Assembly (NCBI RefSeq): GCF_019355935.1
Contig: NZ_CP079925.1
Coordinates: 2,728,001-2,792,000, forward strand
DNA: 64,000 bases
Reading direction: 5' to 3'
From: Comamonas sp. Y33R10-2
Lineage (GTDB): Bacteria; Pseudomonadota; Gammaproteobacteria; Burkholderiales; Burkholderiaceae_C
Under the pieces are notes generated by a model. The model made no database searches. It was given only the letters and a program-made list of their open reading frames with translations, and was not told the DNA's origin. The position numbers were made by a program, and so were the translations under genes. Below are positions 4,705 through 24,070 of the stretch, in pieces; within the stretch, counting starts at the first letter, position 1, and each line of letters starts with the position of its first letter.

Positions 4705-4747
4705 ACCTGTTTTCGATTCTGTTTCTGGTTTTCTCACAGGTGAGCTG

Positions 4748-7501: not shown

Positions 7502-7515
7502 TATTCCCAGACGTG

Positions 7516-7542
7516 AAAAAGGCCGCATAAGCGGCCTTTTTT
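7516..7542. terminator. Rho-independent terminator after metH
   Basis: AAAAAGGCCGC and GCGGCCTTTTTT form an 11-bp stem with an ATAA loop. The T run serves metH, and the A run on the other side gives a T tract for the minus-strand gene that ends at 7544. Confidence 0.9.
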
Positions 7543-7543
7543 A

Positions 7544-8074: not shown

Positions 8075-8076
8075 GG

Positions 8077-8733
8077 CTATGAACTAATCACCGGATAACA
8101 AGCCTCACCCCAAATCGTGTCTGGGTTGGACATCATCAAATCAATCACCACTGGTACCAGCTTGCCCATGATGTTGGCGCAGTCCTGTACTTGGGGGCGA
8201 TTGATCTGGCTGTTCCATGTTGCGCCGCCATGCACCAGTTGGTTGCGCAGAGTGTAGATACGCTGAAAGACCAGGGCTAGCAACTCTGGCGTGTCGCCTT
8301 TTTCAAGTAGCCGGTTTGCGCGTTGTTTGCCTTTGGTGAAGCGTTCTTGCCATTGTTCTTGACTCAGATCGCCGCGGTGAAAGTCCCAGAAGGATTCAAA
8401 GACATAGGGGTTGTCTAGCAGCACGCGTATAGGGCCGCTGAACTCTTTCCAGATCAAGGCTTCCAGTTGCTTGTCTGTATCCAGACCATTGATCTTTTTG
8501 AGAAAAGCGCGAAAAGCGTCTTGCTCTGAAAGGCGCTGACCTTGCGGAATTTCATGCGCATAGGCGGCATTGAACGCAATCCAGAGAAAGATAAAGCGAC
8601 CATCGGGGTCATCGCACTGGCTGGCTCGTTGCAACCAGCTAAGTGCACGGTGAATGCGCAGAGTTAATGCATCAGGCATGTCATCACGAATGCTCCGGTG
8701 ACGCACTTTGAGTGCGGTGTATGTAGCTTGCAT
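8077..8733 (-). CDS. ApeA-like HEPN domain protein
   Basis: A 218-residue protein. The central block FLWIAFNAAYAHEI and the C-terminal YTLRNQLVHGGATW, with R-x4-H at RNQLVH, resemble the ApeA-like HEPN domain found in many uncharacterised bacterial proteins and in some anti-phage effectors. The start ATG at 8733 has GAAGG close upstream; the Met at residue 19 is an alternative. It is the first gene of a two-gene operon with a second R-x4-H protein. Function unknown; HEPN proteins are often RNases. Confidence 0.65.
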   Translation of the reverse strand: MQATYTALKVRHRSIRDDMPDALTLRIHRALSWLQRASQCDDPDGRFIFLWIAFNAAYAHEIPQGQRLSEQDAFRAFLKKINGLDTDKQLEALIWKEFSGPIRVLLDNPYVFESFWDFHRGDLSQEQWQERFTKGKQRANRLLEKGDTPELLALVFQRIYTLRNQLVHGGATWNSQINRPQVQDCANIMGKLVPVVIDLMMSNPDTIWGEACYPVISS

Positions 8734-9207: not shown

Positions 9208-10581
9208 GTGATTAATACTGCCCAATTGCTGGCTGACGAAGCCAAATACTGCTCGTTTGGTGACACCGTCCACTACGTCAATCCCCCCAAGATTTTCACA
9301 GGCTGCGATGGCAGCTATATGTACGACGACTCAGGCACCGCCTACCTCGATTTGCAGATGTGGTACTCGGCCGTCAACTTTGGCTACAAGAACAAGCGTC
9401 TTGAGCAAAAGATGATCGAGCAGCTCCAAGAGCTGCCCCAGGTGGCAAGTCAGTACCTGCACCCCACCAAGATCGAGCTTGCCAAGTTCATCGCGGAAGA
9501 CGCCAAGAGCAAATGGGGCAATGACGGCCGCGTGCACTTCAACGTGGGCGGCGCGCAAGCCATTGAAGACTCGCTGAAAGTGGTGCGCAATGCCAGCGGC
9601 GGCAAGAGCTTGATGTTCGCTTTTGAAGGCGGCTACCACGGCCGCACGCTCGGTGCTTCTTCCATTACCTCCAGCTACCGCTATCGTCGCCGCTTCGGCC
9701 ACTTCAGCGACCGCGCTCAGTTCATCCCCTTCCCCTACCCCTTCCGTCGCCCCAAGGGCATGACGGCAGAGGAGTACGCCGACTCCATCGTGGCAGAGTT
9801 TCGCCGCAAGTTCGAGAACGAATACCACGCAGTCTGGGACCCCAAGACCAACCAGTGCGAATACGCGGCTTTCTACATTGAGCCAATTCAAGGCACCGGT
9901 GGCTACGTCATTCCCCCTGCCAACTTCTTCACCGGTTTGAAGAAGGTGCTGGACGACCACGGCGTGCTGCTGGTGGTCGATGAAATCCAGATGGGTTTTT
10001 GGCGCACCGGCAAGCTGTGGTCGGTCGAAAACTTCGGCATCAAGCCCGATGTACTGGTGTTTGCCAAGGCACTGACCAACGGCCTGAACGCGTTGAGCGG
10101 CCTGTGGGCGCGCGAAGAGTTGATTAACCCCACGGTGTTTCCACCTGGCTCCACCCACTCCACCTTTGCTGCGAATCCTCTGGGCACGGCGCTGGGTCTG
10201 GAAGTGATGCGCATGACGCACGAGATGGACTTCGGTCGTCAAGTGTGCGAATCGGGCGCCTACTTCCTCGAAGGCCTCAAGGATCTGCAAAAGCGCCACA
10301 AGGAAATCGGTGATGTGGACGGCATGGGCTTGGCACTGCGCGCCGAAATTTGCACCGAAGACGGCTTTACGCCCAACAAGGCGCTGCTGGACAAGATGGT
10401 GGACATCGGCCTTGAAGGTGGTCTGGAATACCAAGGCCAGAAGCGTGGCCTGGTGCTGGACGTGGGCGGCTACTACAAGAACGTGATCACCTTTGCGCCT
10501 TCGCTGATGATTTCACGCCCTGAAATTGACGAAGCCATGGTGCTGCTGGATCAGTTGCTGACCAAAGCGAAAAGCGCATAA
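9208..10581 (+). CDS. Class III PLP-dependent aminotransferase
   Basis: The 457-residue protein shows the class III (ornithine/acetylornithine/omega-amino acid) aminotransferase fold: GGAQAIEDSLK at 114-124 (cofactor phosphate region), FEGGYHGRTLGA at 139-150, VVDEIQMGFWRTGK at 256-269 with the pyridine-binding Asp258, and the Schiff-base Lys287 in VFAKALTNG. These enzymes move amino groups to or from terminal or alpha carbons; the substrate is unknown. It begins with GTG at 9208 and leads a four-gene operon with a GNAT-like transferase, a ureohydrolase-like protein and a CFA-type methyltransferase, which points to a dedicated biosynthetic pathway rather than arginine or lysine metabolism. 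Confidence 0.85.
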   Translation: MINTAQLLADEAKYCSFGDTVHYVNPPKIFTGCDGSYMYDDSGTAYLDLQMWYSAVNFGYKNKRLEQKMIEQLQELPQVASQYLHPTKIELAKFIAEDAKSKWGNDGRVHFNVGGAQAIEDSLKVVRNASGGKSLMFAFEGGYHGRTLGASSITSSYRYRRRFGHFSDRAQFIPFPYPFRRPKGMTAEEYADSIVAEFRRKFENEYHAVWDPKTNQCEYAAFYIEPIQGTGGYVIPPANFFTGLKKVLDDHGVLLVVDEIQMGFWRTGKLWSVENFGIKPDVLVFAKALTNGLNALSGLWAREELINPTVFPPGSTHSTFAANPLGTALGLEVMRMTHEMDFGRQVCESGAYFLEGLKDLQKRHKEIGDVDGMGLALRAEICTEDGFTPNKALLDKMVDIGLEGGLEYQGQKRGLVLDVGGYYKNVITFAPSLMISRPEIDEAMVLLDQLLTKAKSA

Positions 10582-10583
10582 CA

Positions 10584-10690
10584 CCCCTTGAGGCGCTTTG
10601 CGCCTTCCCCCTCTCTCTTCGGGAGGGGGGCAACGCCTTCGCTGCGGGGCGGCCCTTGCTTGGCGTTTCTGGTTTGGGTCGCGGCAGTTT
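10584..10690. repeat. GC-rich intergenic repeat (Comamonadaceae type)
   Basis: The pattern CTTGAGGCGCTTTGCGCCTT, then a C-rich stretch facing GGGAGGGGGG, then GGCGGCCCTTGCTTGGCG, resembles a mosaic palindrome that I recall between genes in Acidovorax and Comamonas genomes. The inner arms CCCCCTC/GAGGGGG can pair. It sits inside the first biosynthetic operon and creates a false upstream extension of the next reading frame. Confidence 0.5.
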
Positions 10691-10713
10691 CAAAATCGAA
10701 TACGAATCAAGGA

Positions 10714-11775
10714 ATGGCGACGGAAAAACTCCGCAACCAGCTCGAACCCAGCGGTCTTTTGAGGCAGTTTGCCGATCACCCGCCAGAAGGCTTTGCCTTG
10801 CTGAAGGACTGGCCTGCCCCCGCCTTCACGGCACCGTTTGACTTGCTGACCACTGCAGATGACGCGCTCAAGGCGCGTCTTTTGTCGTTACCGGGTGGCC
10901 AATGGTTGAGTTCAAAACTCACCCTGCAAACCGACTTTGTGGGCGCCACCGTCAGCGAATATGCGCTGCTGCCTCAAGGCATTGCTGCAAGCACACTGGC
11001 GCAGCAATTGCGGGCCATGGCGGGTCGCACCCTGCTGACCATCGTCAAGGATTTGCCGCAGGCATCGCCACTGCTTTCTGAAGATGAAAACCGCTTCTCC
11101 AGAGAAGTCACTCAAGCGCTTTCAGAGCAAGGTTTTATTGCTTTGGAAGGGCAGGCGCTGGCCTATGTCCCCATTACCTTTAGCAGTCTTGACGCCTATC
11201 TGGCGGGCCTGTCAAAAAACCGCAGAAGCAGCCTCAAACGCAAGCTCAAAAGCCGCGAGCAGCTGAGCATAGAACGCATTCCAACCGGTGCGGCATTCGC
11301 GGATGATGCATGTGTAGATGCCTACTACGCGCTGTTTGATGCCGTTTACGCGCAAAGCGAAATTCACTTCGACAAACTCACTCGCGCCTTCTTTGCCGAC
11401 CTGCTGCGCGATGCAGGCAATGGCGGCATCGTGTTTGAATACCGCGACCTGCAAAGCAAGGCTCTGCTAGGCTGGAACCTGTGCTTTGAGCATGGTGGCA
11501 AACTGATAGACAAATACATCGGCCTGTCTTACCCGGCAGCGCGTGAAGCCAACCTCTATTTTGTGAGCTGGATGGTCAATCTTGAATACGCACTGGAGCG
11601 CGGGCTCAGCCACTATGTGGCGGGCTGGACCGACCCTGAAGTCAAGGCCCAGCTGGGCGCCAGCTTCACCATGACGCAGCACGCAGTCTTCATCCGCAAC
11701 CCCGTGCTGCGCGCATTGGGGCGGCGCTTTTCCAGTCTGTTTGAGGGCGATAGCCAGTGGGGTGACAAGACATGA
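10714..11775 (+). CDS. GNAT/FemAB-like acyltransferase (COG3146 type)
   Basis: From ATG 10714 the product has 353 residues and resembles the predicted peptidoglycan-bridge/GNAT acyltransferase group. The segment YLAGLSKNRRSSLKRKLKSR near residues 161-180 followed by a second GNAT-like half (LGWNLCFEHGGKLIDKYIGL; NLYFVSWMVNLEYALERG; AGWTDPEVKAQLGA) is the usual order. Such enzymes join an acyl or aminoacyl group to an amine. AAGGA directly abuts the ATG, an unusually tight site. The longer frame from 10588 runs through a repeat and is rejected. It overlaps the next gene by 4 bases (ATGA). Confidence 0.75.
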   Translation: MATEKLRNQLEPSGLLRQFADHPPEGFALLKDWPAPAFTAPFDLLTTADDALKARLLSLPGGQWLSSKLTLQTDFVGATVSEYALLPQGIAASTLAQQLRAMAGRTLLTIVKDLPQASPLLSEDENRFSREVTQALSEQGFIALEGQALAYVPITFSSLDAYLAGLSKNRRSSLKRKLKSREQLSIERIPTGAAFADDACVDAYYALFDAVYAQSEIHFDKLTRAFFADLLRDAGNGGIVFEYRDLQSKALLGWNLCFEHGGKLIDKYIGLSYPAAREANLYFVSWMVNLEYALERGLSHYVAGWTDPEVKAQLGASFTMTQHAVFIRNPVLRALGRRFSSLFEGDSQWGDKT

Positions 11776-12674
11776 TGATGCAGCTGCAACCCGTTGTGCT
11801 GGATGTCGATGGCTCCGTAGGCCCACTCAACAACGAGCTGCGTCTGCCGCTTTTGGAATGGCAAGAGCTGGTGCGCTTTGGCTGCGGCCTGCGCAGCTTT
11901 AAACGATTTACCGATGCCATCCACACCCATCTGCCCCCGCTGCACGGCACCGCGCTCATGGGCAGCGGCGATTTTCATCATCTGAGCTGGCCGCTGATTG
12001 AGCGCAGCATCGGCCATAACGGCTACACGCCTACCAACCCGCTGCGCGTGGTGGTGCTGGACAACCACCCGGACAATATGCGCTTCCCATGGGGCGTGCA
12101 TTGCGGCTCATGGGTGCGGCGCGTGGCCATGCACCCTGCCGTATCGCAAGTGCATGTAGCGGGCATCACATCTCAGGACATTGGCTCGGGCCACGCCTGG
12201 GAAAACTATCTGCGCCCGCTGCGCGCTGGCAAGCTCACCTATTGGAGCTGCGGTGTGGATACGCGCTGGGCCCAACGCATTGGGGCCGGCAAGGCGTTTC
12301 GCAGCTTTTCTACCATCGCAGAGTTGGTGCAGGCGCTGTCTCGTCATCTCAGTGAATGGCCGCAGGACACCTATCTGAGCATAGACAAAGATGTGTTCGC
12401 CCCCGAGGTTGTGCGCACCAACTGGGATCAAGGCCAGATGCTGGAAAAGCAGGCCATGGGCCTGATCGATGCCCTGCGCGGGCAGATCATCGGAAGTGAC
12501 ATTACCGGCGACGTGTCGTCATGGCACTATGGCACTTGGTGGAAGCGCCTGATGAGCGCAAGCGACGGGCAGGACACGCAGATTGATGCTCAAACGCTAG
12601 CTGCTTGGCAGGCTGGGCAACATGGATTGAATCAACGGCTGGTGAAGCGCATAGCGGCCAGCAACGCGAGTTAA
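11772..12674 (+). CDS. Divergent ureohydrolase (arginase/agmatinase) family protein
   Basis: A 300-residue protein that keeps the dinuclear metal ligands of the arginase fold in altered motifs: GSGDFHH at 64-70 in place of GGDHS, DNHPD at 97-101 in place of DAHxD, and SIDKDVFAP at 203-211 in place of SxDxDxxDP. A late ITGDVSS replaces the usual D-x-V-E-x-N-P segment, so the substrate guanidino or amide group is probably not arginine. Known relatives hydrolyse guanidines, formimidoyl groups or acetylated polyamines (the related deacetylase fold). Start ATG at 11772 overlaps the previous stop. Confidence 0.72.
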   Translation: MMMQLQPVVLDVDGSVGPLNNELRLPLLEWQELVRFGCGLRSFKRFTDAIHTHLPPLHGTALMGSGDFHHLSWPLIERSIGHNGYTPTNPLRVVVLDNHPDNMRFPWGVHCGSWVRRVAMHPAVSQVHVAGITSQDIGSGHAWENYLRPLRAGKLTYWSCGVDTRWAQRIGAGKAFRSFSTIAELVQALSRHLSEWPQDTYLSIDKDVFAPEVVRTNWDQGQMLEKQAMGLIDALRGQIIGSDITGDVSSWHYGTWWKRLMSASDGQDTQIDAQTLAAWQAGQHGLNQRLVKRIAASNAS

Positions 12675-12719
12675 AGCGCTTCACCGATACCTTTCAACAC
12701 CTCGCTTCAAGGAGCTGAC

Positions 12720-14033
12720 ATGCTGGACCGGTTGACCGAAAAATTGCTGCGACATGCGTTTGAACCCTTGGTCAAAACGGGACGGCTTGAAGTCACCCTC
12801 CCATCTGGAAAGACACTGCTCTTTGGCGACGGTGGCCAGCCTCAGGCAAGGATACGTTTTACCGACAAACGCGCAATCTTTGCACTGCTGCGCGACCCCG
12901 ATTTGAACTTTGGCGAGATGTTCATGCAAGAGCGCCTGCTCATCGAAAAAGGCAGCGTGTATGACGTGCTGGAGCTGGCTCTGTGCCATTCAAAAAATGC
13001 GCCCATCAGCGCCACCGTGCGCATGCTGGACGCCTGGCGCATGATGCTGCGCCCTTTGCTACAAAACAATCTGCGCGGCAAAGCTCGCGCCAATGTGGCC
13101 CATCACTATGATCTGGATGACCGTCTGTATCAGCTGTTTCTGGATAGCGAGCGTCAGTATTCCTGCGCCTATTTTGAGCAGGGTGATGAGGATCTTGAAA
13201 CGGCCCAGCTCGCCAAGAAACGGCATATCGCCGCCAAGCTGCTGATTGAGCCAGGACAGCGCGTTCTAGACATAGGCTGCGGCTGGGGCGGCCTCTCTCG
13301 CTATCTGGCCGAGGTAGCGGGGGCGGCGCATGTCACGGGTATCACGCTGTCCACCGAGCAGCTTGCGGGCGCCCAACACAAAGCCTCTCAATCCACCCAC
13401 GCGGAGAAGTTGGATTACCAACTGGTGGATTACCGCGACATGAATCGTGAAGAGCATGGCTCGTTCGACCGCATTGTTTCAGTCGGCATGTTCGAGCATG
13501 TAGGAACCGGTTTTTACGATGCCTTTTTCCGCAAATGTCACGAGCTGCTCAGTGACGACGGGGTCATGCTGCTGCACTTTATTGGCAACAGCGATGTGCC
13601 AGACTTCAATAATCCATGGATTGAGCGCTACATCTTTCCGGGCGGCCATATTCCATCCATGTCGGAGTTCACACCCGCTATCGAACGATCAGGTCTGGTG
13701 ATCTGCGACATAGAGGTTCCGCGCCTGCACTATGCCCAAACTCTGCGCCTGTGGCGCGAGCGCTTCCTGGTACAGAGAGCGCAAGCTGCCGCGCTGTATG
13801 ACGAGCGTTTTTGCCGCATGTGGGAGTTCTATTTGTCCATGTCTGAAGCGGCGTTCCGCTATCAGGACATTGCCATTTTTCAGGTGCAACTGAGTCGCAG
13901 GCAAGAGGCAGTGCCACTGACGCGCGATTACATCCACCAGCGTGAAGATGACCTCAAGAGTCTGGAAGCAGCGCAGGGCATGGTGGCCCCACACATGGCA
14001 GGCGCTGCAAAAATCAAAGTGAATACTGCCTGA
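12720..14033 (+). CDS. Cyclopropane-fatty-acyl-phospholipid synthase family methyltransferase
   Basis: A 437-residue CFA/mycolic-acid-synthase-type enzyme. The N-terminal ~120 residues form the lipid-associated domain; HHYDLDDRLYQLFLDSE at 128-144 and the AdoMet loop VLDIGCGWGG at 182-191 are hallmark sequences, followed by VGMFEHVG and IFPGGHIPS. Classical members add methylene from AdoMet to unsaturated acyl chains at the membrane; paralogues in biosynthetic loci modify other lipids. AAGGAG lies ~8 bases before the ATG. It is the last gene of the operon beginning at 9208, suggesting that the pathway touches a lipid or fatty acyl chain. Confidence 0.88.
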   Translation: MLDRLTEKLLRHAFEPLVKTGRLEVTLPSGKTLLFGDGGQPQARIRFTDKRAIFALLRDPDLNFGEMFMQERLLIEKGSVYDVLELALCHSKNAPISATVRMLDAWRMMLRPLLQNNLRGKARANVAHHYDLDDRLYQLFLDSERQYSCAYFEQGDEDLETAQLAKKRHIAAKLLIEPGQRVLDIGCGWGGLSRYLAEVAGAAHVTGITLSTEQLAGAQHKASQSTHAEKLDYQLVDYRDMNREEHGSFDRIVSVGMFEHVGTGFYDAFFRKCHELLSDDGVMLLHFIGNSDVPDFNNPWIERYIFPGGHIPSMSEFTPAIERSGLVICDIEVPRLHYAQTLRLWRERFLVQRAQAAALYDERFCRMWEFYLSMSEAAFRYQDIAIFQVQLSRRQEAVPLTRDYIHQREDDLKSLEAAQGMVAPHMAGAAKIKVNTA

Positions 14034-14060
14034 AATGGCTCAATTTCAAGGCGTTATTCG

Positions 14061-14108
14061 GCTGCAATCAAGACCTATCAAGCACTAGCAGCTATTGTTC
14101 TTGATAGA
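14061..14108. repeat. Dispersed palindromic repeat, copy 2 (half-type)
   Basis: Contains TATCAAGCACTAGCAGCTAT followed by TGTTCTTGATAG, a half-type copy of the family at 4238 and 44372. It lies in the 77-base gap between two convergent operons. Confidence 0.55.
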
Positions 14109-14110
14109 TT

Positions 14111-15325
14111 TCAGCGCTGCGTGGCCGCCTGAATATTCGCCAGCACACGCGCAAACCTCGCATCATCGAGCCACGGGCTGTTGCTGATGGCCAGCAGGCG
14201 CTTCGCCCAGTCCCGCGCTTGCGGCACATCTTCATTGCGCGCTGCGCCCAGCACATGGTCGTAGCAGCCATAGTCGGGCAGCACATGGACAAAGGGCAAA
14301 GACAGCCCGCTGCCATCGCCCCAATGGGCTTGCAGCACGGCATCTCTGGCTTGCTGGCTGGGCAGGCGCAGCAAGATCACCGGCCACACGCCTTGAGAAT
14401 CTGCAGCGATATCGTCCACCACCTCTAGCCCGCAAGCGCGCAGCTGGGCCAAGCGCGTTCTGGTTTGATCGGCGATCTGCTGCTGAAAAACGCTCAGCCG
14501 CCGCAAAGCTTTGGAGCCGACTGCCTGACGCCAGGCGCCTAAGCTGTGCTGCGGGATGAAGTCATCAAAATCATCGCTCGCAGCCTGCACCCAGTTGCCG
14601 CGAGACAACGCTTGCTCCAGCGGCTTGCCATAAGCCATGCGCAGACCTGCCGGATGATAGAGCGCGGCGTAGCCCAGCAGCTCAACGCTGCGGCGCAGCT
14701 CCCACCAGAGATTAAATTTAGTCTTGGCACCCGTGGCATGCAGCACATCGCGCAGCACGGCATCACGCGTGATGAGTACGCCGCCTTCATAAGTGCTTAG
14801 ACCTTTGCCCACGGCCAGACTGAAAAAGCCCACATCGCCCTTGAGCCCCACAGACTGGCCTTCGCAGCTTGCACCCAGCGCTTGCGCCGCATCTTCAATC
14901 ACATAAGCACCCACGGCGCGTGCGCATTGCACAGCGGCATCCACGTCGGCCACCCGTCCACAAAGATGCGTGGGCAGCACAGCCAGCGTCTTGTCGCTGC
15001 ACAGCAGGTGCAGGCAATCTGCATCCATATCCAGTGCATCCACCCGCAGATCGCACAGCCGCATCTGTAGCCCACATTGCGCAATGGCCAGTGCCACCAA
15101 TGGGCAGGTGTAGGCGGGGACAATGACTTCGCTGCGCTCGGGCCTGAGTTGCTTGAGGCTACGCAAAGCCACCATCAGCGCCGAGGTGCCAGAGCACTCA
15201 AGCTGCACGCTATGCACGCCCAGCCATGCGGCAAGTTGCTCTGCAAAATCACCCGCCCCCCAGGGCAGCAGATCAGCCCATTGCAGCGGCAAGCCTGCCG
15301 TAGGGGGAACCGTTATTTCGCGCAT
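14111..15325 (-). CDS. DegT/DnrJ/EryC1/StrS-family aminotransferase
   Basis: 404 residues with the sugar-aminotransferase signatures: ECSGTSALMVALRSL at 43-57, VIVPAYTCPLVALAI at 67-81, VIEDAAQALGA at 142-152 with the PLP-binding Asp145, and the Schiff-base Lys174 in SLAVGKGLSTYEGG. Members usually aminate keto-sugars, but some act on non-sugar ketones. No glycosyltransferase or nucleotide-sugar gene accompanies it. It is the last gene of the nine-gene minus-strand operon, 1 base after the four-helix transporter gene, so its amino product is probably handled by the same pathway. Confidence 0.85.
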   Translation of the reverse strand: MREITVPPTAGLPLQWADLLPWGAGDFAEQLAAWLGVHSVQLECSGTSALMVALRSLKQLRPERSEVIVPAYTCPLVALAIAQCGLQMRLCDLRVDALDMDADCLHLLCSDKTLAVLPTHLCGRVADVDAAVQCARAVGAYVIEDAAQALGASCEGQSVGLKGDVGFFSLAVGKGLSTYEGGVLITRDAVLRDVLHATGAKTKFNLWWELRRSVELLGYAALYHPAGLRMAYGKPLEQALSRGNWVQAASDDFDDFIPQHSLGAWRQAVGSKALRRLSVFQQQIADQTRTRLAQLRACGLEVVDDIAADSQGVWPVILLRLPSQQARDAVLQAHWGDGSGLSLPFVHVLPDYGCYDHVLGAARNEDVPQARDWAKRLLAISNSPWLDDARFARVLANIQAATQR

Positions 15326-15326
15326 C

Positions 15327-15716
15327 TCAGCTCGTCTGTTCTACCGCCTCAGGGGCCTCGCTCACGGCAAGGCACATGATGCCCACCACGATGAACAGAC
15401 AGCCGATAATTTGCGGCCAGCCGATGGACTCTTTAAACAGCCAGTACGAGATCGCCATCACCGAAATAATCTCTAAATGCGAAGCCGCAAAGGCAGGCCC
15501 GATGGGGGCATGTTTAAGCAAGCTCATCCATGTGAAAAAAGCTCCGATGTAGCCAACGAATGCACCATAAATCCAGGGCTGTCCAAACACGCGAGTCAGC
15601 CAAGCGGGAGAGAATTCCAGCGGCAAGGCAGACTCTCCGGCCATCTTGAAACTCAGCTGCGCCAGCGTGTCAAAAGCCATGAGCACCAGAAAGCCGATGA
15701 TGTAAAAACGCTTCAT
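15327..15716 (-). CDS. Small four-helix DMT/SMR-like transporter subunit B
   Basis: From ATG 15716 the product is 129 residues with four predicted membrane helices and the DMT-type stretch YWLFKESIGWPQIIGCLFIVVGI near the end. Size and architecture match ArnE/ArnF- and EmrE-like half transporters. Its start comes 1 base after the stop of the related gene at 15718-16086, so the two probably form a heterodimer in the inner membrane. ArnE/ArnF pairs flip a lipid-linked amino sugar; a similar lipid-linked or amine cargo is a reasonable guess here. Confidence 0.75.
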   Translation of the reverse strand: MKRFYIIGFLVLMAFDTLAQLSFKMAGESALPLEFSPAWLTRVFGQPWIYGAFVGYIGAFFTWMSLLKHAPIGPAFAASHLEIISVMAISYWLFKESIGWPQIIGCLFIVVGIMCLAVSEAPEAVEQTS

Positions 15717-15717
15717 T

Positions 15718-16086
15718 TCAATGCAATCCCACCACCGCGACGCCAATGGAAATCAGCACAATGCCTGCGACCCGCATGGGAGCTAGTTTTTCGCGAAACA
15801 GTACACGTCCCAAAATCATGATCGCAACGATGTTGATGGAGCCCAGCAAAACACCATCGGACAGGGGCACCAGCGACAAAAATGCCAGCCAGACGACAAA
15901 CTCAGCCACATAGCAGGTAATGCCGACCCATAGCCAAGGGCGAGCCAGCATGAAGCGCCAGCGCTCCATGCCATCACGATCGCCCGGCTCACTGGCCGCA
16001 GCCTTGAAGGCGAGTTGACCACCACTGTCCACCAACACATTGAGCACCCACAGCGTCACCACCAGTGGCGAGAGATCACTACCCAT
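15718..16086 (-). CDS. Small four-helix DMT/SMR-like transporter subunit A
   Basis: A 122-residue, four-helix membrane protein with VLNVLVDSGGQLAFKAA in helix 1 and LGRVLFREKLAPMRVAGIVL near the end. It shares layout, though little identity, with the next gene, typical of paired SMR/ArnEF-type transporters. Its start overlaps the end of the alpha/beta hydrolase gene by 8 bases, showing tight operon packing. Confidence 0.75.
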   Translation of the reverse strand: MGSDLSPLVVTLWVLNVLVDSGGQLAFKAAASEPGDRDGMERWRFMLARPWLWVGITCYVAEFVVWLAFLSLVPLSDGVLLGSINIVAIMILGRVLFREKLAPMRVAGIVLISIGVAVVGLH

Positions 16087-16987
16087 TCACACCCCTGGCA
16101 GGCACCGCTGCATGGGCGATGCGCGCTATGAATTCGTTCAACTTGGCGATCACGGTGCGACGCTCACGGTCTATGGTGATCATGTGATAACAGTTATCCA
16201 GCAGCACCAGTTCCACATGCGCATTCACGGCAATTCGCTCAATGTCTTGGGCATTGCTGACTGATGAAATATCGTCTTCTTTAGCGTGCAGTACCAAACA
16301 GGGCGAACGCAGCTGCGGCAGATTTTTCATCACATAGGCAGAAAGCGCACGCAGCTCAATCACGCTCCACCATGGGTTGCCGGGCAGACCTGCCGCAGAA
16401 CTATCACCGTTGTTCATCTGCTCGACGATGCGCGCGCGCAGGGCTTCATCCTTGATGCCGTAAGGCGGTGCTTCCATGAACACGCTGTTGCGGCCAATGC
16501 CCAGCAGGCGAAACAGCGGGAGCAAGAATGCAAGTCGTGTGTATGAAGGAATGCTCCAGCCGTCATAGCGGAAAGTGGTTGACAACGCACCCACACCGGC
16601 CACTTTGTCCGGATGCTTTTGCGCGACTGCCAGCGACAGCAGCGAGCCCATAGAAAGGCCTGCTACCACCACATGATCCACATGCCTGCCAAAGCGCTGC
16701 AGGCCAGACTCCACACTGCTCAGCCAGTCCGTCCAGCGCGATGCAACAAGATCTTCCATCGCGGCGCAGTGGCCCGTCAGTTGCACGCCGTAGATGGTGA
16801 AACCTTGCTTGTTCAAGCCTTTGCCCAGCAAGCGCATCTCGGCAGGCGTGCCCGTCAAGCCGTGAATCAGCAGCACACCTATGCGTGCGTTCAGGCCTTC
16901 GCCGGGCATGATGAATTCATGGGGTGTCAGGCAGACTTCCTGCAAAGAGCTTTGTTGCATCTGAACCAACCCATCAGCGGCACTCAT
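16079..16987 (-). CDS. Alpha/beta-hydrolase (Est30/monoacylglycerol-lipase-like esterase)
   Basis: 302 residues. The oxyanion region LLIHGLTGTPAEM at 39-51, nucleophile elbow AGLSMGS with Ser112, an acidic residue in HAKEDDISS and the catalytic His in DNCYHMITID make a complete triad. This pattern is that of the carboxylesterase/thermostable monoacylglycerol lipase group (COG1647). It has no signal peptide, so it acts in the cytoplasm, perhaps releasing or transferring an acyl product. The start overlaps the preceding phosphatase stop by 4 bases. Confidence 0.83.
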   Translation of the reverse strand: MSAADGLVQMQQSSLQEVCLTPHEFIMPGEGLNARIGVLLIHGLTGTPAEMRLLGKGLNKQGFTIYGVQLTGHCAAMEDLVASRWTDWLSSVESGLQRFGRHVDHVVVAGLSMGSLLSLAVAQKHPDKVAGVGALSTTFRYDGWSIPSYTRLAFLLPLFRLLGIGRNSVFMEAPPYGIKDEALRARIVEQMNNGDSSAAGLPGNPWWSVIELRALSAYVMKNLPQLRSPCLVLHAKEDDISSVSNAQDIERIAVNAHVELVLLDNCYHMITIDRERRTVIAKLNEFIARIAHAAVPARGVNG

Positions 16988-17697
16988 GCGGGCTGCTCCA
17001 CGCCGAGGATGATTTGCTCAAGCAATTGCGTCGCCTGATCAAAGTTTTCAAAGCGCACATGGGCAATGCCATTGCTCTCGCAATAAGCGATGAGCTTGTA
17101 CTTGGCCAGCACAAAGTCGGCCTTGCCTGAGACGCAAAAATCTGAGGTGCTGTCGCCGATATAAAGCACGCGACCATGCACGGCTTGCTGCTCTGCGAGA
17201 CGCTCGCATTTGCAGTTACCGCTGGCACGTGCGCAGTGATTGCTGGCCCATGGGGAGTCAAGACGCCAGCTGTGCTCACCCGTCTGCACCAGATGATTGG
17301 CGATGACTTCCAAGTCACCCAGACCATTGCCCGCCAGCACATGACGAATGGCGTAGTCGATGCCGTCGCTGACAACCTGAACCTTGATGCCCAGCGCTTT
17401 GGCTTCTTGCACAAAGCGAATGAAATGCTCGTCAATTTCGATGGTGTCGAGATGGTTCTGCAGCTCGGCTTCGCTCATGTCCAGCAAGGCAACCTGACCC
17501 TGCATGCATTCGCGTGAGCCGATGTCCCCGCGCTCCCATGCATCTTCCAGCTCCTGCCAGCCCGGCTTGCCAAAACGGTTGAGCAAAGTGTCGGTCACAT
17601 CCAGCAGGCTGATGGTGCCGTCGAAATCGCTTTGCACCATCCAGCCCGTCGAAGCTGTAGCCGTGGACGATGGGAAAATTTGAATTCGCTTATTCAT
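16984..17697 (-). CDS. HAD-IB (MtnX-like) phosphatase
   Basis: 237 residues of the HAD superfamily, subfamily IB: catalytic DFDGTISLLDVTD with Asp24 and Asp26, VVSDGID as motif II, and YIGDSTSDF as the metal-binding acidic motif. Closest by pattern are MtnX-like and phosphoserine-phosphatase-like enzymes. No methionine-salvage gene is nearby, so the substrate is more likely a phosphorylated intermediate of this locus. It overlaps the genes on both sides (8 and 4 bases). Confidence 0.83.
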   Translation of the reverse strand: MNKRIQIFPSSTATASTGWMVQSDFDGTISLLDVTDTLLNRFGKPGWQELEDAWERGDIGSRECMQGQVALLDMSEAELQNHLDTIEIDEHFIRFVQEAKALGIKVQVVSDGIDYAIRHVLAGNGLGDLEVIANHLVQTGEHSWRLDSPWASNHCARASGNCKCERLAEQQAVHGRVLYIGDSTSDFCVSGKADFVLAKYKLIAYCESNGIAHVRFENFDQATQLLEQIILGVEQPA

Positions 17698-18625
17698 GGA
17701 AACTGACCCTCACGTTCTGGCCCACTTTGGCATTGGCCGGCGGCTTGTCAAACACCAGTACAGATTCGACCACTCGTACCGGGCCGCGCTGGGTGTCATC
17801 CTGCAGGCGCGCCGGGCCGTAGACGGGGCTGACTCGCTGCACCGTGGCCGATGGAAATTCAAGCCGGGCTGCGCCGCCGTCACCATCCACCACAACATGA
17901 GCTTTCATGCCCTCACGGATGGCAGCCACAAAGCTCTCGTTAACTTCAGCGCGCACGATCAACGGGCGCTGGGGCAGTAGCACCGCTACAGGGCTGCCGC
18001 TTTGCAGCATGCTGCCCGTGTGGGCCGTCAGGCGGATGACGGTGGCGGCCTCTGGCGCACGCAATTCGTGGCGTTGCTGCAAGGCGCGCAGTTGTTCGAC
18101 CTTGCGCTTGGCCACGGATGCTTCGACGGCGGCAATATCCACTTCAGCCTGCGCATCGCGCACAGACTGACTGGCTTCATCCACATTCTGCAAATCGGCT
18201 GCGCCTTGCTTGGCGGCAGCCTGCCAGCGCGCGAGCGTTGTTTTGAGTGCAGGCAAACGCTCTTGTTTGGCTTTGAGCTTGGTTTGCGCCAATTGCTGCT
18301 CCGATTCGGCCACGCCCAGATCGGCGCGGGCCGCGTCATCGGCCAAGCGCAGCAAGAGCTGACCCTTTTGCACACTCTGGCCTTCCTTGATCAGCAACTG
18401 CTGAACCACACCAGGCGCTGGTGATGCGAGGTCAAGCAAACCGCCCTCCACATCAATCTTGCCGCGGGCAACGGCAACCTGATTTTGCGGCTTGGTCTGC
18501 GCCGCAGCGACAGAAACGAGTGATGCAGAATCCTGCGCTGGCGAGCACCCACCCAGCGACAGCAGAGCTGCCGCAAGCAGCGGCACACCCGAACTGAGGC
18601 TGAGAAACAATGGGCTACGGTTCAT
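17690..18625 (-). CDS. HlyD/MacA-like periplasmic adaptor lipoprotein
   Basis: 311 residues with a lipoprotein signal (hydrophobic stretch ending LLSLGGCS, Cys ~27), a lipoyl half-motif PAPGVVQQLLIKEGQSV, a long Gln/Ala/Lys-rich coiled coil (~110-200), the second lipoyl half and a beta-barrel end (VGQNVRVSF). It would link the inner-membrane ABC transporter at 18629-20552 to the TolC-like channel at 20549-21964. Confidence 0.87.
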   Translation of the reverse strand: MNRSPLFLSLSSGVPLLAAALLSLGGCSPAQDSASLVSVAAAQTKPQNQVAVARGKIDVEGGLLDLASPAPGVVQQLLIKEGQSVQKGQLLLRLADDAARADLGVAESEQQLAQTKLKAKQERLPALKTTLARWQAAAKQGAADLQNVDEASQSVRDAQAEVDIAAVEASVAKRKVEQLRALQQRHELRAPEAATVIRLTAHTGSMLQSGSPVAVLLPQRPLIVRAEVNESFVAAIREGMKAHVVVDGDGGAARLEFPSATVQRVSPVYGPARLQDDTQRGPVRVVESVLVFDKPPANAKVGQNVRVSFHE

Positions 18626-18628
18626 GAA

Positions 18629-19384
18629 TTATTCCTTGATGGGGCTGTTCTGGCGCCAGTCGCTGCGAATGGCGCCGTCTTCCATGCCCAGCACGCGATC
18701 GGCGTGGCGTACCAGCCGTGGGTCGTGGCTGACGCACAGAACCGTCGTGCCATGGCTGCGGGCTGCGCGGTGCAACAGATCAATGACGCGCTGGCCGCTT
18801 TCCGCATCCAGTGCGCTGGTTGGCTCATCGGCAAACAAAAGCTGGGGCTGCTTGGCAATGGCTCTAGCAATCGCAACGCGCTGCTTTTCACCGCCAGAGA
18901 GCTGCGCCGGGCGCATATGACTGCGGTGTGACAAACCCACTTCATCCAGCGCATCTTTGGCGCGGCGCAATGTTTCGCTGCTCTTGAGCCCCATATAGCC
19001 CAGAGGCAGCTGTACCTGCTCCAGCGCCGTCAGCGCCGGGAAAAGGTTGAAGCCCTGAAAGACAAAGCCGGTATGGCGCAGGCGAAATTTCTCCAGTGCG
19101 CCAATACTCATCTTTGCCAAGTCCTGCCCCAGCGCCATGGCACGGCCCCCATCGGGCTTTTGCAGGCCGGACATGAGCGACAGCAAAGTGCTCTTTCCGC
19201 AACCCGATGGACCTGAAATCAGGCTCAGCTCGCCCGGCTGAAGGCTGACGGAGAGCCCTTGCAGGACATGCACCTGCACGATGCCGGAGACAAAGGATTT
19301 TTCAAGGCGCACAGCCTCAAGACTGGGGGCGACCACATTTGCAGTAGAAAGAGTGTCGGGGCGTTCGCTCGTCATGGCTTGCAT
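18629..19384 (-). CDS. ABC transporter ATPase, LolD/MacB type
   Basis: From ATG 19384 the protein has 251 residues. Walker A is GPSGCGKS, the signature is LSGGEKQRV, Walker B LLFADEP, and the switch His is in CVSHDPR. These features match the MacB/LolD/FtsE group that works with FtsX-type permeases. GAGGAG lies eight bases before the ATG at 19384; the longer frame from 19444 overlaps the permease gene and is rejected. It powers the tripartite exporter of this operon. Confidence 0.9.
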   Translation of the reverse strand: MQAMTSERPDTLSTANVVAPSLEAVRLEKSFVSGIVQVHVLQGLSVSLQPGELSLISGPSGCGKSTLLSLMSGLQKPDGGRAMALGQDLAKMSIGALEKFRLRHTGFVFQGFNLFPALTALEQVQLPLGYMGLKSSETLRRAKDALDEVGLSHRSHMRPAQLSGGEKQRVAIARAIAKQPQLLFADEPTSALDAESGQRVIDLLHRAARSHGTTVLCVSHDPRLVRHADRVLGMEDGAIRSDWRQNSPIKE

Positions 19385-19394
19385 GCTTGGCTCC

Positions 19395-20552
19395 TCAACG
19401 CAGCAAGGTAGCGGGGTCGGCGCGCAGCAAGCTGCGCATGGCACCCAAACCGGATAGCAGGGACAACACCGCGATCAAAATGGCGCAAGCAAGCACCGCA
19501 GCCATATTGAGAGCCACCGGCACGCGATAGCTTGCAGCAATGCTTAGCAGCACAGCGCTGGTCAAGGCCGCGAGCACAAAGCCCAGACCACCAATCCAGC
19601 AGGCCTGTTCTACCACTACGCGCCCCAGCGATGCACGGCTGACGCCCAGCGCATTGAGCACTGCATATTCACGCGCTGAACCGGCAACCACGGCCTTCAG
19701 CGACTGGCTGGTCACAATGGCACCCACCAGACACACGATGACTGCCATAAAGAGTACGCCAGCGCCAGCGCCGGTATCGAGCATCCAGTAGCGCTGGGAG
19801 CGCCGGGCAAAGGCATCGGCAGTCCACACCTCATAGGGGCCAAAGCTGCTGCCGGGTTCACTCAAGCGCACTTGAGTCTCCTGCGGTTTTGCACCCGGCT
19901 TAAGGCGAGCCACAAAATAAGTGCTGCCGTGAGTTGCAGTCGTTTCTGCAATCTCGCGGGCCGTGCTGAGCGAGGCCAGCACGTTGACGCCGCCCAGCCC
20001 GCGCAGGCCATCAACCACGGCAACGATCTTCACAGCATGGTTGTTGATCCAGGCAATGCCACCCTCCTGCGCACCCAGAGTGCCCAGATCAGCGCGATCC
20101 ACAATCACAGCACCCGGCTCAAGCAGCAGCTGACGCTGCCAAGCTGTGAGCACCTTGGTAAACATCATGGCTTGATCCACTACGCTGATGCCGGACAGAT
20201 AGACGGAAACACCACCGCCTGCTGTGCTTTGGAGATGGTTGGTATGGGTGTGGGCTCGCCAATCGCCGTCGACCCAGACATAAGGTTCTACTGCTGCGAT
20301 CTCAGGATCCATGCGCAGGCGCATTTCGACATCACTAGCAATGTTGCGGCCAAAATTAACGCTTTGCGTACCCGGGTAGCCGACCCACAGGTCAGCGGAA
20401 GAGGCTGTCACATAAATGGCTGAAGACCCAAAAATACCCAGCACCAGCGCTGCCTGCATGGCCAGCAGAACGCCTGAAAATCCCACGGCAAACACCGATG
20501 GAACAAAGCGCCGCCATTCATGAATCAGCGTCTTGCGCGCCAGAGCAATCAA
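19395..20552 (-). CDS. FtsX/MacB-type ABC permease
   Basis: 385 residues: one N-terminal membrane helix (~14-40), a periplasmic domain of ~220 residues and three C-terminal helices, with AREYAVLNALGVSRASLGRVV before the third helix as in the FtsX domain. The architecture is that of MacB-like exporters, in which the periplasmic domain pumps cargo from the periplasm or outer leaflet into TolC rather than across the inner membrane. It overlaps the TolC-like gene by 4 bases. Confidence 0.87.
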   Translation of the reverse strand: MIALARKTLIHEWRRFVPSVFAVGFSGVLLAMQAALVLGIFGSSAIYVTASSADLWVGYPGTQSVNFGRNIASDVEMRLRMDPEIAAVEPYVWVDGDWRAHTHTNHLQSTAGGGVSVYLSGISVVDQAMMFTKVLTAWQRQLLLEPGAVIVDRADLGTLGAQEGGIAWINNHAVKIVAVVDGLRGLGGVNVLASLSTAREIAETTATHGSTYFVARLKPGAKPQETQVRLSEPGSSFGPYEVWTADAFARRSQRYWMLDTGAGAGVLFMAVIVCLVGAIVTSQSLKAVVAGSAREYAVLNALGVSRASLGRVVVEQACWIGGLGFVLAALTSAVLLSIAASYRVPVALNMAAVLACAILIAVLSLLSGLGAMRSLLRADPATLLR

Positions 20553-21964
20553 GGATTCCCCCCAGCTGTTTGAGTGATGACAGGATCCAGTGGCGCAGCA
20601 CCGACGGCTTTGTAGAGTGCGACATAAGCCAGTGCCTCGGCAGCCTTGGCCGTTGCCAGCTCGCTTTGCAGCTGCAAGCTGGCGTGTGCGTTTCCAGCAC
20701 CTGCCAGTTCGTTGGACAAGCCGAGTTGCTGACGAACCGCCTGCGCTTTATCACGCGACTGGTGAATTTGCTGGGCAGCGAGCAATGATTGCTGGCGCTG
20801 CTGCTGGGCCGCCACTGCTGCCAGTGCGCCTTCGGCTTCGGCAACTCCATTGAGTACAGCCTGTCGATAAGCCTTGATACTGGCCTGCAATGCAAGCTCT
20901 TTGCCATCGGCCACCGCCCGGCGGCGACCCCAGTCGAACAGCGGAATATCAATTTGCGGCCCGAACATGGGCATGGCATCTGACGTTGTTCGATAGTTTT
21001 GCGTGAGGTTGTAGGAAAACAGCAGGGAGCCACCCAGAGCCAGACGTGGATAGAGTGCAGAACGCGCCACTCCAACCTCTGCCGCAGCTTGTTCTACAGC
21101 GGCTTCTGCGCTTTGAATGTCGGGGCGTTTGCGCAGCAACTCGGCTGGCATAACTGCAATGGCTGACATGACAGGGAATGAAGCATCTGCGTTGGCTTGC
21201 AACCACAGCGGCTCAGGGCGATCACGCCCCAGCAGGGCTGCCAATGCATGGGCTGCGCGCATCTGGCTTTCGTTCAAGAGCGCCAGTTGCGCCTCTTGCG
21301 TGCGCAGCTGCAATTGCTGCAGCTCTAACTCCTGAGTATTTGTCAGGCGCTGATCACGGCGAATCTGCAATAGCTGCAAATGTCTTTGAGATTGGAGCAG
21401 CTGCTTTTGCGCCAGATTGCGCTGAATTTGAGCCAGCCTGATATCGAGATAGCGGTGAACCACATCCGCCACCAAGGCCACGCGTGCAGCGTGCAGCTTG
21501 GCAGCAGCATCCAGCACTCCTGCCGAGCCGGAGCGGCGTGCTGCTTCAGCATCACCAAACAGGCCCAAGTCCCAGCTCACATCAATGCTGGCATGAAAGT
21601 AGGAGTCGACTGCGGCAATATCCTGCAGTGTGCGAGCACTTGCGCCAACGACAGGAAGGAAGGCCGAGCCTGCTGTGTTCGCAAGTAGTCGCTGTTGACG
21701 TAGCCTCAAAACAGCCTGAGCCACATCAAGATTCTGGGCCAGTGCTTCGTCCACAAGCGCATTCAGGGATGGATCATTCCAGCTGCGCCACCAAAGGGCC
21801 AGATCGGAGTTCCCTTTTTTTAGAGCGGCTGCTTGTAGCCACTGATCTGGAAGGGTGGAGTCCACTCGAACTTCAATAGGCGCGGAGCACCCTGCCAGCA
21901 ATGACATGGCGCACAAGCAAAGACTGCCAATACGAAGACGTGAGGATTGGAGGGGACTTATCAC
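20549..21964 (-). CDS. TolC/NodT-family outer-membrane channel lipoprotein
   Basis: 471 residues. A lipobox (MSLLAGCS, Cys ~25) follows the signal peptide. Two repeats of the outer-membrane efflux domain follow, with the usual LWWRSWNDPSLNALVDEALA near residue 57 and RRPDI-like LLRKRPDIQSAEAAV near residue 275. It is the first gene of the nine-gene operon and completes a tripartite exporter with the HlyD and ABC genes. The promoter lies in the 199-base gap shared with the divergent response regulator. Confidence 0.9.
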   Translation of the reverse strand: MISPLQSSRLRIGSLCLCAMSLLAGCSAPIEVRVDSTLPDQWLQAAALKKGNSDLALWWRSWNDPSLNALVDEALAQNLDVAQAVLRLRQQRLLANTAGSAFLPVVGASARTLQDIAAVDSYFHASIDVSWDLGLFGDAEAARRSGSAGVLDAAAKLHAARVALVADVVHRYLDIRLAQIQRNLAQKQLLQSQRHLQLLQIRRDQRLTNTQELELQQLQLRTQEAQLALLNESQMRAAHALAALLGRDRPEPLWLQANADASFPVMSAIAVMPAELLRKRPDIQSAEAAVEQAAAEVGVARSALYPRLALGGSLLFSYNLTQNYRTTSDAMPMFGPQIDIPLFDWGRRRAVADGKELALQASIKAYRQAVLNGVAEAEGALAAVAAQQQRQQSLLAAQQIHQSRDKAQAVRQQLGLSNELAGAGNAHASLQLQSELATAKAAEALAYVALYKAVGAAPLDPVITQTAGGNP

Positions 21965-22163
21965 AAGGAGGTTAGGTCAGCTATGGGCTTTCTTCTGGAA
22001 AACCCGTGGAGTGCAGAAACAACTATCCATAACGTCATTGAACGGTAAGAAGTTTTCGCCAGATTGAAGGGTTTATGGAGGAATCATGGAGATGAATCTG
22101 TAATCGTTGATCGCAGGCTCTCGCCCATAATGCTTGGATAACAAGTTTCAGGAGGTCCGCTGG
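21965..22163. promoter_or_regulatory. Divergent control region of exporter operon and two-component system
   Basis: This 199-base region separates the TolC-like start from the response-regulator start. AGGAGG at 22150-22155 is a near-perfect ribosome site for the regulator, and CATAAT at 22128-22133 could be a -10 box for it. The OmpR-type regulator probably binds here to control both sides, but no convincing direct repeat was identified by eye. Confidence 0.4.
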
Positions 22164-22913
22164 ATGCATGACTTTTCTGCGCATAAAACCATGACAAACC
22201 TGTCTCAGCAAGCTTCGATGCCCATGGTGCTCGTTGTAGAAGATGAGCCTCAGATCGCTGGCGTACTCAGTGCTTATCTAGAGCGTGATGGCTTGCGCAT
22301 TCGTATGGCGTATGACGGCCAAGAGGCTTTGCAAATCTTTCGTCAGTTGCGACCGGATTTGGTGCTGCTAGACATCCATCTGCCTAAGGTTGATGGCGTA
22401 GATGTACTGAAGATGATTCGCAATGAAAGTGATGTGCCCGTCATCATGGTGACGGCGCTGGCTGGCGATGTGGACAAACTGCTCGCTTTGCGTATGGGTG
22501 CGGACGACTATGTGGTCAAGCCCTTCAACCCTCCAGAGGTTGTCGCTCGCGTGCGTGCCGTGTTACGCCGCTCGCAAGTCAAGCCCGCTGTGGTTGCAGC
22601 CCCCATCCGTGTAGGCCCCATAGAAATTGATGTCGAAGCCCACAGCGCTGCCGTTTACGATGATCAAGGCAACGCTGTTGGCTTATCCCTCACTCTCACG
22701 GAATTTCGCCTACTGGCCTGTCTTGCAGCCCAGCCACGTCGTTGTTTTTCGCGCTCTTATTTGATTGAAAACTGCCTGCCTGAAAGTGATGCGCTAGAGC
22801 GAGTTATCGACTCTCACCTCTCCAAGCTCAGGCGCAAGCTGCAACTGGCTGGTCAAGATGGCCTGATCGAAACCGTGCGTGGCATTGGATACCGTTTATG
22901 GCCCTGGGACTGA
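22164..22913 (+). CDS. OmpR-family response regulator (BaeR-like)
   Basis: From ATG 22164 (eight bases after AGGAGG) the protein has 249 residues. The receiver domain has VVEDEP, the phospho-acceptor Asp in LLDIHLPKVDG, MVTA and VVKPF; the C-terminal winged helix ends with DSHLSKLRRKLQ and VRGIGYRL. The longer frame from 22134 lacks a ribosome site. It overlaps its kinase gene by 16 bases and is divergent from the exporter operon, which it likely controls. Confidence 0.9.
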   Translation: MHDFSAHKTMTNLSQQASMPMVLVVEDEPQIAGVLSAYLERDGLRIRMAYDGQEALQIFRQLRPDLVLLDIHLPKVDGVDVLKMIRNESDVPVIMVTALAGDVDKLLALRMGADDYVVKPFNPPEVVARVRAVLRRSQVKPAVVAAPIRVGPIEIDVEAHSAAVYDDQGNAVGLSLTLTEFRLLACLAAQPRRCFSRSYLIENCLPESDALERVIDSHLSKLRRKLQLAGQDGLIETVRGIGYRLWPWD

Positions 22914-24070
22914 ACCGTATTTGGGTTCGTTTTGGGCTGTGGATTACGGCTGCAGTCTTGCTCGCCATCGCCTCACTGGCTGCCGGCGTGCTGGTGTTTT
23001 CGGAGCTTCAATATAGGCAGTTCTATCGCGATCTGCCAAGCCCCATCAAGATCGAGTTGCAGACTCTTAAGTCCCGTAATCTGGAGGACAGTCCTAGAGC
23101 CTTGCAAATTTACTCAGATTACTGGGAAGGCGATCGCCTGTTTGGCGAAAAGTGGTCTTTGGTCATTGGTCTCGCTGTGAGCCTGCCCTTTGGCATGGCC
23201 ATGGGATTTTGGATTTCGCGCCGCATTACCAGTCCAATCGCCTCTATGGTCGAAGTCGCCACCCATGTGGAGCGTGGCGAGCTGAGCTACCGCGCAGTCA
23301 AAGGCAATGCCCATGGTGAGATGGCCGAGATGATCGACGCCTTCAATGGCATGGTGAGTTCTTTGGAGTCGTTCGAGGCGGAGCGCTTGGCCACAGCCGC
23401 GTCTATCTCTCACGAGCTTCGCACTCCGTTGACTGTCTTACAAGCAAGGCTGCACGCTATTTGCGATGGTGTGATCGACACTAGTCAGTCTGAAATGAAG
23501 ATGCTGCTGGCTCAGGTCGAGCACCTAGGCAGATTGGTGGGAGACCTTCATACTCTTTCCATGGCTGATGCAGGGCAGCTCTCACTGCGTAAAGAACGCA
23601 TTGACTTGGCGACATTGGTTGGTGAAGTGGTTGAAGAGTTGCGCCCTCAACTACAAAAAAATGACATGGCTTTGTCGCTGGACTTGCCCATGCAGGAAGG
23701 CAATGGAAGTACAGATATAGGCGCTGATGCGGACAGGTTAAGGCAGATCATTAGCAACCTCATTAGCAATGTATTGCGTCATGCCGGCAATGGTCACTGG
23801 CTGGGCATTCAGGTGCAGTCTGAACCCGATCCCCAAGGCCTGCGCTGGGTCACTCTCAGCGTTAGCGATGCGGGGCCTGGCCTTGATGCAGACCTTCAAT
23901 CTCACCCCTTTCAGCGTTTTGCGCAGGTGCCGGGAACGCGTCGCAAAGAAGGCTCAGGGCTAGGCCTTTCCATCGTCAAAGCATTAGTTACTTCGCAAGG
24001 TGGCCGTGTCAGCGCAGACACATCCGATAGGGGTGGCGCTCGTTTTACGGTGCGCTTTCCTCGCCTCTGA
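22898..24070 (+). CDS. Sensor histidine kinase (BaeS-like)
   Basis: 390 residues: membrane helices at about 12-34 and 87-108 with a short periplasmic loop of ~50 residues, a HAMP linker, the dimerisation box ISHELRTPLTV with phospho-acceptor His172, the N box NLISNVLRHAGN, DAGPG and GSGLGLSIVKAL. It would phosphorylate the regulator encoded just upstream. The small sensor loop is like BaeS/CpxA-type envelope-stress kinases, consistent with sensing the exporter cargo or membrane damage. Confidence 0.9.
   Translation: MALGLNRIWVRFGLWITAAVLLAIASLAAGVLVFSELQYRQFYRDLPSPIKIELQTLKSRNLEDSPRALQIYSDYWEGDRLFGEKWSLVIGLAVSLPFGMAMGFWISRRITSPIASMVEVATHVERGELSYRAVKGNAHGEMAEMIDAFNGMVSSLESFEAERLATAASISHELRTPLTVLQARLHAICDGVIDTSQSEMKMLLAQVEHLGRLVGDLHTLSMADAGQLSLRKERIDLATLVGEVVEELRPQLQKNDMALSLDLPMQEGNGSTDIGADADRLRQIISNLISNVLRHAGNGHWLGIQVQSEPDPQGLRWVTLSVSDAGPGLDADLQSHPFQRFAQVPGTRRKEGSGLGLSIVKALVTSQGGRVSADTSDRGGARFTVRFPRL

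Follow-up and report, generated by a model that had tools for sequence, protein, structure and literature searches.

Whether neighboring genes for aminotransferases, a transferase, hydrolases and an exporter serve a single pathway, and what such a pathway would produce, is the question raised by a 15-gene locus of Comamonas sp. Y33R10-2. The locus occupies positions 9208-24070 of the window, i.e. the whole stretch of 64,000 nucleotides analyzed here (contig NZ_CP079925.1, positions 2,728,001 to 2,792,000), and the host genome is complete (3.84 Mb, single contig). Open reading frame (ORF) lists and family scans recovered a plus-strand operon, a facing nine-gene minus-strand operon and a two-component pair, with the families and order given in an original prediction made from the sequence alone. 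As that prediction also held, the family scans found no nonribosomal peptide synthetase, polyketide synthase or glycosyltransferase among the 15 genes. The proteins are referred to below as AT3 (class III aminotransferase), FemAB (FemAB-like transferase), Arg (ureohydrolase), CFA (methyltransferase), DegT (second aminotransferase), ArnE and ArnF (ArnE/F-like pair), ABH (alpha/beta hydrolase), HAD (phosphatase), and HlyD, ABC, FtsX and TolC (adaptor, ATPase, permease and outer membrane factor of the exporter).

The distribution of these genes was examined in a family-wide sample of 120 genomes, in which each genus was represented once and the window's own genome was included. FemAB was found in eight genomes and Arg in exactly those eight; AT3 occurred in the same eight and in G018, and the permease in the same eight and in G096 and G103. 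DegT at more than 50% identity was present in seven of the eight and in no other genome. Hypergeometric P values for co-occurrence, from a test that ignores relatedness, ranged from 1.3e-10 to 1.2e-12 with the window's own genome and from 2.0e-9 to 1.8e-11 without it. A scan of named genomes yielded 197 FemAB relatives, the best 80 of which were kept as loci, including those of Comamonas, Delftia, Paracidovorax, Variovorax, Xylophilus, Alcaligenes, Dyella, Rhodanobacter and other genera; counts over the 80 lean toward near relatives, Comamonadaceae and Dyella. Some loci were cut by contig ends or by the 10 kb flanks, hence counts were made on bracketed loci, either the 65 holding both Arg and ABH or the 41 holding both ABH and TolC. 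Arg followed FemAB on the same strand in all 80 loci. ArnE and ArnF were each present in 64, and DegT in 58, of the loci with Arg and ABH, while HAD, HlyD, ABC and FtsX were present in 41/41 loci with ABH and TolC. All eleven of AT3, FemAB, Arg, ArnE, ArnF, ABH, HAD, HlyD, ABC, FtsX and TolC were found in 40 of the 80 loci. Among the fetched loci, the nearest relative of the window was Comamonas suwonensis, according to a FemAB and Arg tree (FemAB identity 88%).

Rearranged and split versions were also found. The genes ABH-ArnE-ArnF-DegT-HAD-AT3-FemAB-Arg all run in one direction in G392, and in G075 Arg-FemAB-ABH is divergent from a set that reads TolC-FtsX-ABC-HlyD-HAD-AT3, then a ketosynthase and ArnE-ArnF. 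AT3 was absent from 21 of the 80 loci, all from Rhodanobacteraceae and 19 from Dyella; it was located elsewhere in the genome in all five Dyella tested and in G485, and in the two Dyella neighborhoods inspected it adjoins HAD and exporter genes, the set being split over two loci. Because the genes co-occur, FemAB and Arg are invariably adjacent, and rearranged and split versions exist, it is well supported that the two operons are one functional unit, as had been proposed; the outcome named beforehand as refuting the proposal, operons that do not co-occur in other genomes, was not obtained. A chance neighborhood is ruled out by the co-occurrence and the rearranged versions.

More distant relatives provided insight into the core of this unit. 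FemAB was matched in 5 of 369 genomes of the class; two of these (G234 and G358) were set aside, as the match was weak and no other cluster gene was present in the fetched DNA. A profile of Arg matched 16 of the 398 phylum genomes searched (E 1e-8) and, within the genus, 33 of 53. G754 and G778, from the same class, encode Arg, ArnE, ArnF, HAD, AT3, ABH, FemAB and a kinase-regulator pair. In G671, from another class, HAD, AT3, Arg, ArnE, ABH, FemAB, ArnF, kinase and regulator form one run, and G668 has the same run as far as the contig end. Relative to the window, AT3 of these four divergent loci is 69-72% identical and Arg and FemAB are 26-31% identical. FtsX, HlyD and TolC had no match at E 1e-4 in the four stretches, and the sole exporter match in loci L143 and L145 was an ABC ATPase (34%) beside sugar-uptake-type genes. 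Because the divergent loci retain the enzymes and ArnE/F without a nearby exporter, AT3, HAD, ABH, ArnE/F, FemAB and Arg appear to make up the core, with exporter, DegT, CFA, ketosynthase and regulators varying. CFA and DegT are ruled out as core genes by their presence in 13 and 58 of the 65 bracketed loci, respectively, and on a quick FemAB/Arg tree without a mixture model CFA changed seven times and DegT six; the CFA count depends on the threshold (24/80 and 15/80 loci in two scans). Thus the two aminotransferases of the original prediction are both present here but DegT is missing from 7 of the 65, and the lipid methyltransferase is represented by a CFA-type gene that is accessory and gives no evidence about the core.

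The catalytic residues checked were retained among the relatives. Conservation was highest in AT3, with a median identity of 90% across 40 complete loci, and its pyridoxal phosphate (PLP) lysine, Lys287, was present in all 59 loci with AT3. The catalytic Lys174 of DegT was present in 62/62 loci, the nucleophile Ser112 of ABH in 65/65, and both catalytic aspartates of HAD in 47/47 counted loci (48 hold HAD). The CFA protein narrowly missed its nearest equivalog, CPFASynBruc (580.5 bits, cut-off 600). Membership of ArnE and ArnF in the ArnEF families was rejected, both NCBIfam cut-offs being missed. Arg of the window scored under the PF00491 cut-off and its relative in L143, from another class, reached 30.2 bits. 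The predicted Arg model has the alpha/beta/alpha ureohydrolase fold, and the six ligands of the binuclear Mn site (H69, D97, H99, D101, D205, D207) are present, align with those of the genome's own canonical arginase and are invariant in 35 of 35 aligned relatives, all of which also have an acidic residue at the tentative Glu277 position, the counterpart of His141 being less clear (alignments A4, 36 sequences, and A5, 35 sequences, chosen from the 80 loci, the window and L019). Fold and ligands suggest that Arg is a genuine ureohydrolase, consistent with the amidine or amide hydrolase originally proposed. FemAB was modeled as a tandem GNAT protein with a fold nearest to Fem/MprF, aminoacyl-tRNA-dependent transferases, including streptothricin-type synthases. 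Because of this resemblance, the step originally described as acyl transfer may as probably be aminoacyl transfer, the GNAT/FemAB-like assignment itself being retained. We know of no sequence mark for the use of aminoacyl-tRNA as donor. In Pigmentiphaga (L101, 11882-19405), two cyanophycin-synthetase-like genes and an ABC-exporter-type gene lie between Arg and DegT.

Evidence on the product came from the neighbors of the cluster in other genomes. A FabF-like ketosynthase adjoins FemAB in 27 of the 80 loci, all from Rhodanobacteraceae, and is also found beside the cluster in G075, G485 and G685 (the latter two carry an identical family code and possibly represent a single family). Its score exceeded the cut-off of one FabF subfamily and fell slightly short of the FabF equivalog, suggesting that it may differ little from ordinary FabF. 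The window's own genome encodes two ketosynthases, 36% and 31% identical to the Dyella ketosynthase, which are probably housekeeping enzymes. In two genomes lacking FemAB and Arg, a related permease lies with a ketosynthase and an alpha/beta hydrolase, in surroundings that are otherwise different. Genes of the MipA family were present close to cluster genes in 8 of 148 stretches (147 loci plus the window), in distant lineages (Dyella, Rhodanobacter, G754 and G778; e.g. L123 7843-8640, L092 5209-6012, L142 11399-12577), and none was found in the window or among the 15 genes. MipA is described as a polymyxin-sensing outer-membrane barrel in P. aeruginosa (PMC10936184); these neighbors hint at an envelope role of the cluster, and the ArnE/F-like pair suggests lipid flipping. 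A fatty, amine-bearing product, for which the case is circumstantial, is favored because of the FabF-like ketosynthase in relatives and the DevBCA-like exporter, and the original idea of such a product is strengthened by the occurrence of this ketosynthase beside the cluster in Rhodanobacteraceae and G075.

It is considered fairly probable that the two operons constitute one dedicated pathway to an amine-bearing, probably fatty-acyl, amphiphile that is envelope-associated or exported. A fatty precursor would be supplied by housekeeping fatty acid synthesis here, and by the linked FabF-like ketosynthase in some relatives, and would be aminated by AT3. The tandem-GNAT transferase would attach an acyl or, leaning on the fold, an aminoacyl unit, the ureohydrolase would free an amine by removing a guanidino or similar group, and the HAD phosphatase and alpha/beta hydrolase would strip carrier or protecting groups. 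The ArnE/F-like pair would flip the product across the inner membrane and the DevBCA-like ABC-TolC complex would carry it over the outer membrane, with DegT and CFA tailoring it in some lineages. Ornithine is not a coded amino acid, and peptide arginases convert arginyl to ornithyl residues in peptides. A more specific and quite unlikely version is that FemAB uses Arg-tRNA to attach arginine to a fatty amine or lipid produced with the help of AT3 and that Arg converts the arginyl to an ornithyl group, the cationic lipid then being flipped by the ArnE/F-like pair and exported; if true, arginyl transfer followed by urea loss would be a new way to install ornithine on a lipid.

One observation weighs against the core set proposed above. 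In G018 (L128, 7534-11463) AT3 (92%), HAD, ABH and a regulator are kept beside a RhuM-family gene and FemAB, Arg and FtsX were not matched, so this set is either a relic of the system or an abbreviated form of it. The patchy presence noted above (8/120 family and 33/53 genus genomes), the streptothricin-type synthases among the nearest folds of the transferase and the local two-component system would fit an aminated natural product that is small and diffusible (an antibiotic, signal or metallophore) rather than a membrane lipid, with the ABC-TolC complex as a secretion and self-protection pump. This explanation is given a low but appreciable probability; ArnE/F in nearly all bracketed loci and the ketosynthase partners speak against it, and the fact that no exporter was seen near the divergent loci fits a retained envelope product better. 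Slightly less probable is the amine modification of an existing envelope carrier (lipid A, undecaprenyl phosphate or phospholipid) in the manner of Arn or MprF, with the two-component pair answering cationic stress. The ArnE/F-like pair, DegT, the MprF-like fold of the transferase and the polymyxin-sensing MipA family near cluster genes (PMC10936184) are consistent with such a modification, whereas no ArnC/ArnT-like glycosyltransferase or MipA is encoded among the 15 genes and a dedicated trans-envelope exporter would not be needed. Two unrelated operons, for amino acid metabolism and a multidrug pump, are highly improbable, as the resemblance of AT3 to metabolic aminotransferases and racemases and the existence of such exporter modules without these enzymes are outweighed by the way in which the genes co-occur and are rearranged across the genomes sampled.

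The features of the locus are collected in the table. The flipping and export originally proposed fit the ArnE/F-like pair and the tripartite ABC exporter; the exporter was not seen near the divergent loci. The proposed MacAB-like pump gave way to DevBCA as the nearest exporter family; a fused MacB was rejected, as permease and ATPase are two separate ORFs, and membership in the DevBCA family itself was rejected on the NCBIfam cut-offs. Likewise, the BaeSR-like pair is indeed a regulator and kinase divergent from the nine-gene operon, but all equivalog models were under cut-off and BaeSR/AdeRS membership was rejected. The pair probably controls both operons. The junctions in the minus-strand operon are six overlaps (4, 50, 8, 4, 8 and 29 bases) and two gaps (3 and 1); judging from the two long overlaps, the ATPase and ArnF-like genes probably start further inside their ORFs.

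Features of the 15-gene locus (window positions; scores in bits)
Feature	Position	Strand	Evidence
AT3, class III PLP aminotransferase	9208-10581	+	PF00202 241.9
FemAB-like tandem-GNAT transferase	ORF 10588-11775 (TTG 10588); conserved part 10714-11775, from near ATG 10714	+	PF04339 38.2, PF13480 29
Arg, divergent ureohydrolase (arginase-like)	11772-12674	+	PF00491 19.9 (cut-off 22); six metal ligands
CFA/CMAS-type S-adenosylmethionine methyltransferase, accessory	12720-14033	+	PF02353 (CMAS) 286.6 (cut-off 27)
DegT-type PLP aminotransferase, accessory	14111-15325	-	Family scan; catalytic Lys174
ArnF-like SMR/EamA protein	15327-15746	-	Nearest NCBIfam ArnF, 25.7 (cut-off 99)
ArnE-like SMR/EamA protein	15718-16086	-	Nearest NCBIfam ArnE, 32 (cut-off 92)
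ABH, alpha/beta hydrolase (Hydrolase_4)	16079-16987	-	Family scan; nucleophile Ser112
HAD-IB phosphatase, MtnX-like	16984-17697	-	TIGR01489 (MtnX-like HAD-IB) 105.3 (above curated cut-off 81.55); nearest solved structure 2fea
HlyD/DevB-like periplasmic adaptor	17690-18625	-	Lipobox LGGC near N terminus; DevB 56 (cut-off 129)
ABC ATPase	18629-19444	-	Nearest NCBIfam DevA, 221.3 (cut-off 295.8)
FtsX-type permease	19395-20552	-	Nearest NCBIfam DevC, 55.2 (cut-off 290.4)
TolC/NodT-type outer membrane factor (OEP)	20549-21964	-	Lipobox LAGC
OmpR-type response regulator, AdeR/BaeR-like	22134-22913	+	Nearest AdeR, 251.8 (equivalog cut-off 340)
HAMP-HisKA sensor kinase, BaeS/AdeS-like	22898-24070	+	Nearest BaeS/AdeS (BaeS_SmeS), 190.3 (equivalog cut-off 500)

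Several neighboring features were also observed. Directly upstream of the cluster, three ORFs (152, 176 and 218 aa; 7070-8733, minus strand) had no Pfam match at E 0.01, and downstream of the two-component pair lie DUF3482/GTPase-like and DUF2868 proteins (24086-27069, minus strand); relatives of neither group were found in the 80 related loci. MetH (4637-7501, plus strand; 954 aa) lacks its N-terminal part and covers positions 334-1229 of a 1234-position model, suggesting that methionine synthase is probably split into two genes in the host genome. In G103 (L134), a related DevC-like permease, a ketosynthase and a hydrolase lie beside motility and amino-sugar (FdtA, DegT) genes and possibly constitute an exporter-linked cluster of a second type.

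Descriptions of such genera often mention unassigned aminolipids, for one of which the cluster is a concrete candidate. A prior description was not found in open-licence PMC papers, although one elsewhere is possible, and the terms 'arginase' and 'arginyl' had no occurrences in PMC12945691; within the open-licence literature searched, the pathway looks undescribed. If true, the genera named above would share an undescribed pathway conserved as a unit, with a more divergent version in another class of the phylum; in this pathway a ureohydrolase of a separate subfamily stands side by side with a Fem-like transferase.

Among known systems, the exporter resembles DevBCA-HgdD of Anabaena, which exports heterocyst glycolipids (PMC6161253). 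Both have a separate DevA-like ATPase, a DevC/FtsX-like permease, a DevB/HlyD-like adaptor and a TolC-type channel, and among NCBIfam models the ATPase and permease match DevA and DevC best. In contrast to DevBCA-HgdD, the exporter described here is linked to aminotransferase, ureohydrolase and transferase genes, with no glycosyltransferase among the 15. The Arn pathway for 4-amino-4-deoxy-L-arabinose (L-Ara4N) has a DegT-type aminotransferase and an ArnE/ArnF-like pair in common with the cluster, whereas its ArnA, ArnC, ArnD and ArnT have no equivalent among the 15 genes. FemAB is 9-16% identical to MprF, FemX and aminoacyl-tRNA-dependent peptide synthases and has no MprF flippase domain. Finally, Arg shares 10-20% identity with the solved ureohydrolases compared, has an extra TNWDQG motif, and forms a subfamily separate from arginase, agmatinase, proclavaminate amidinohydrolase and the peptide arginase OspR.

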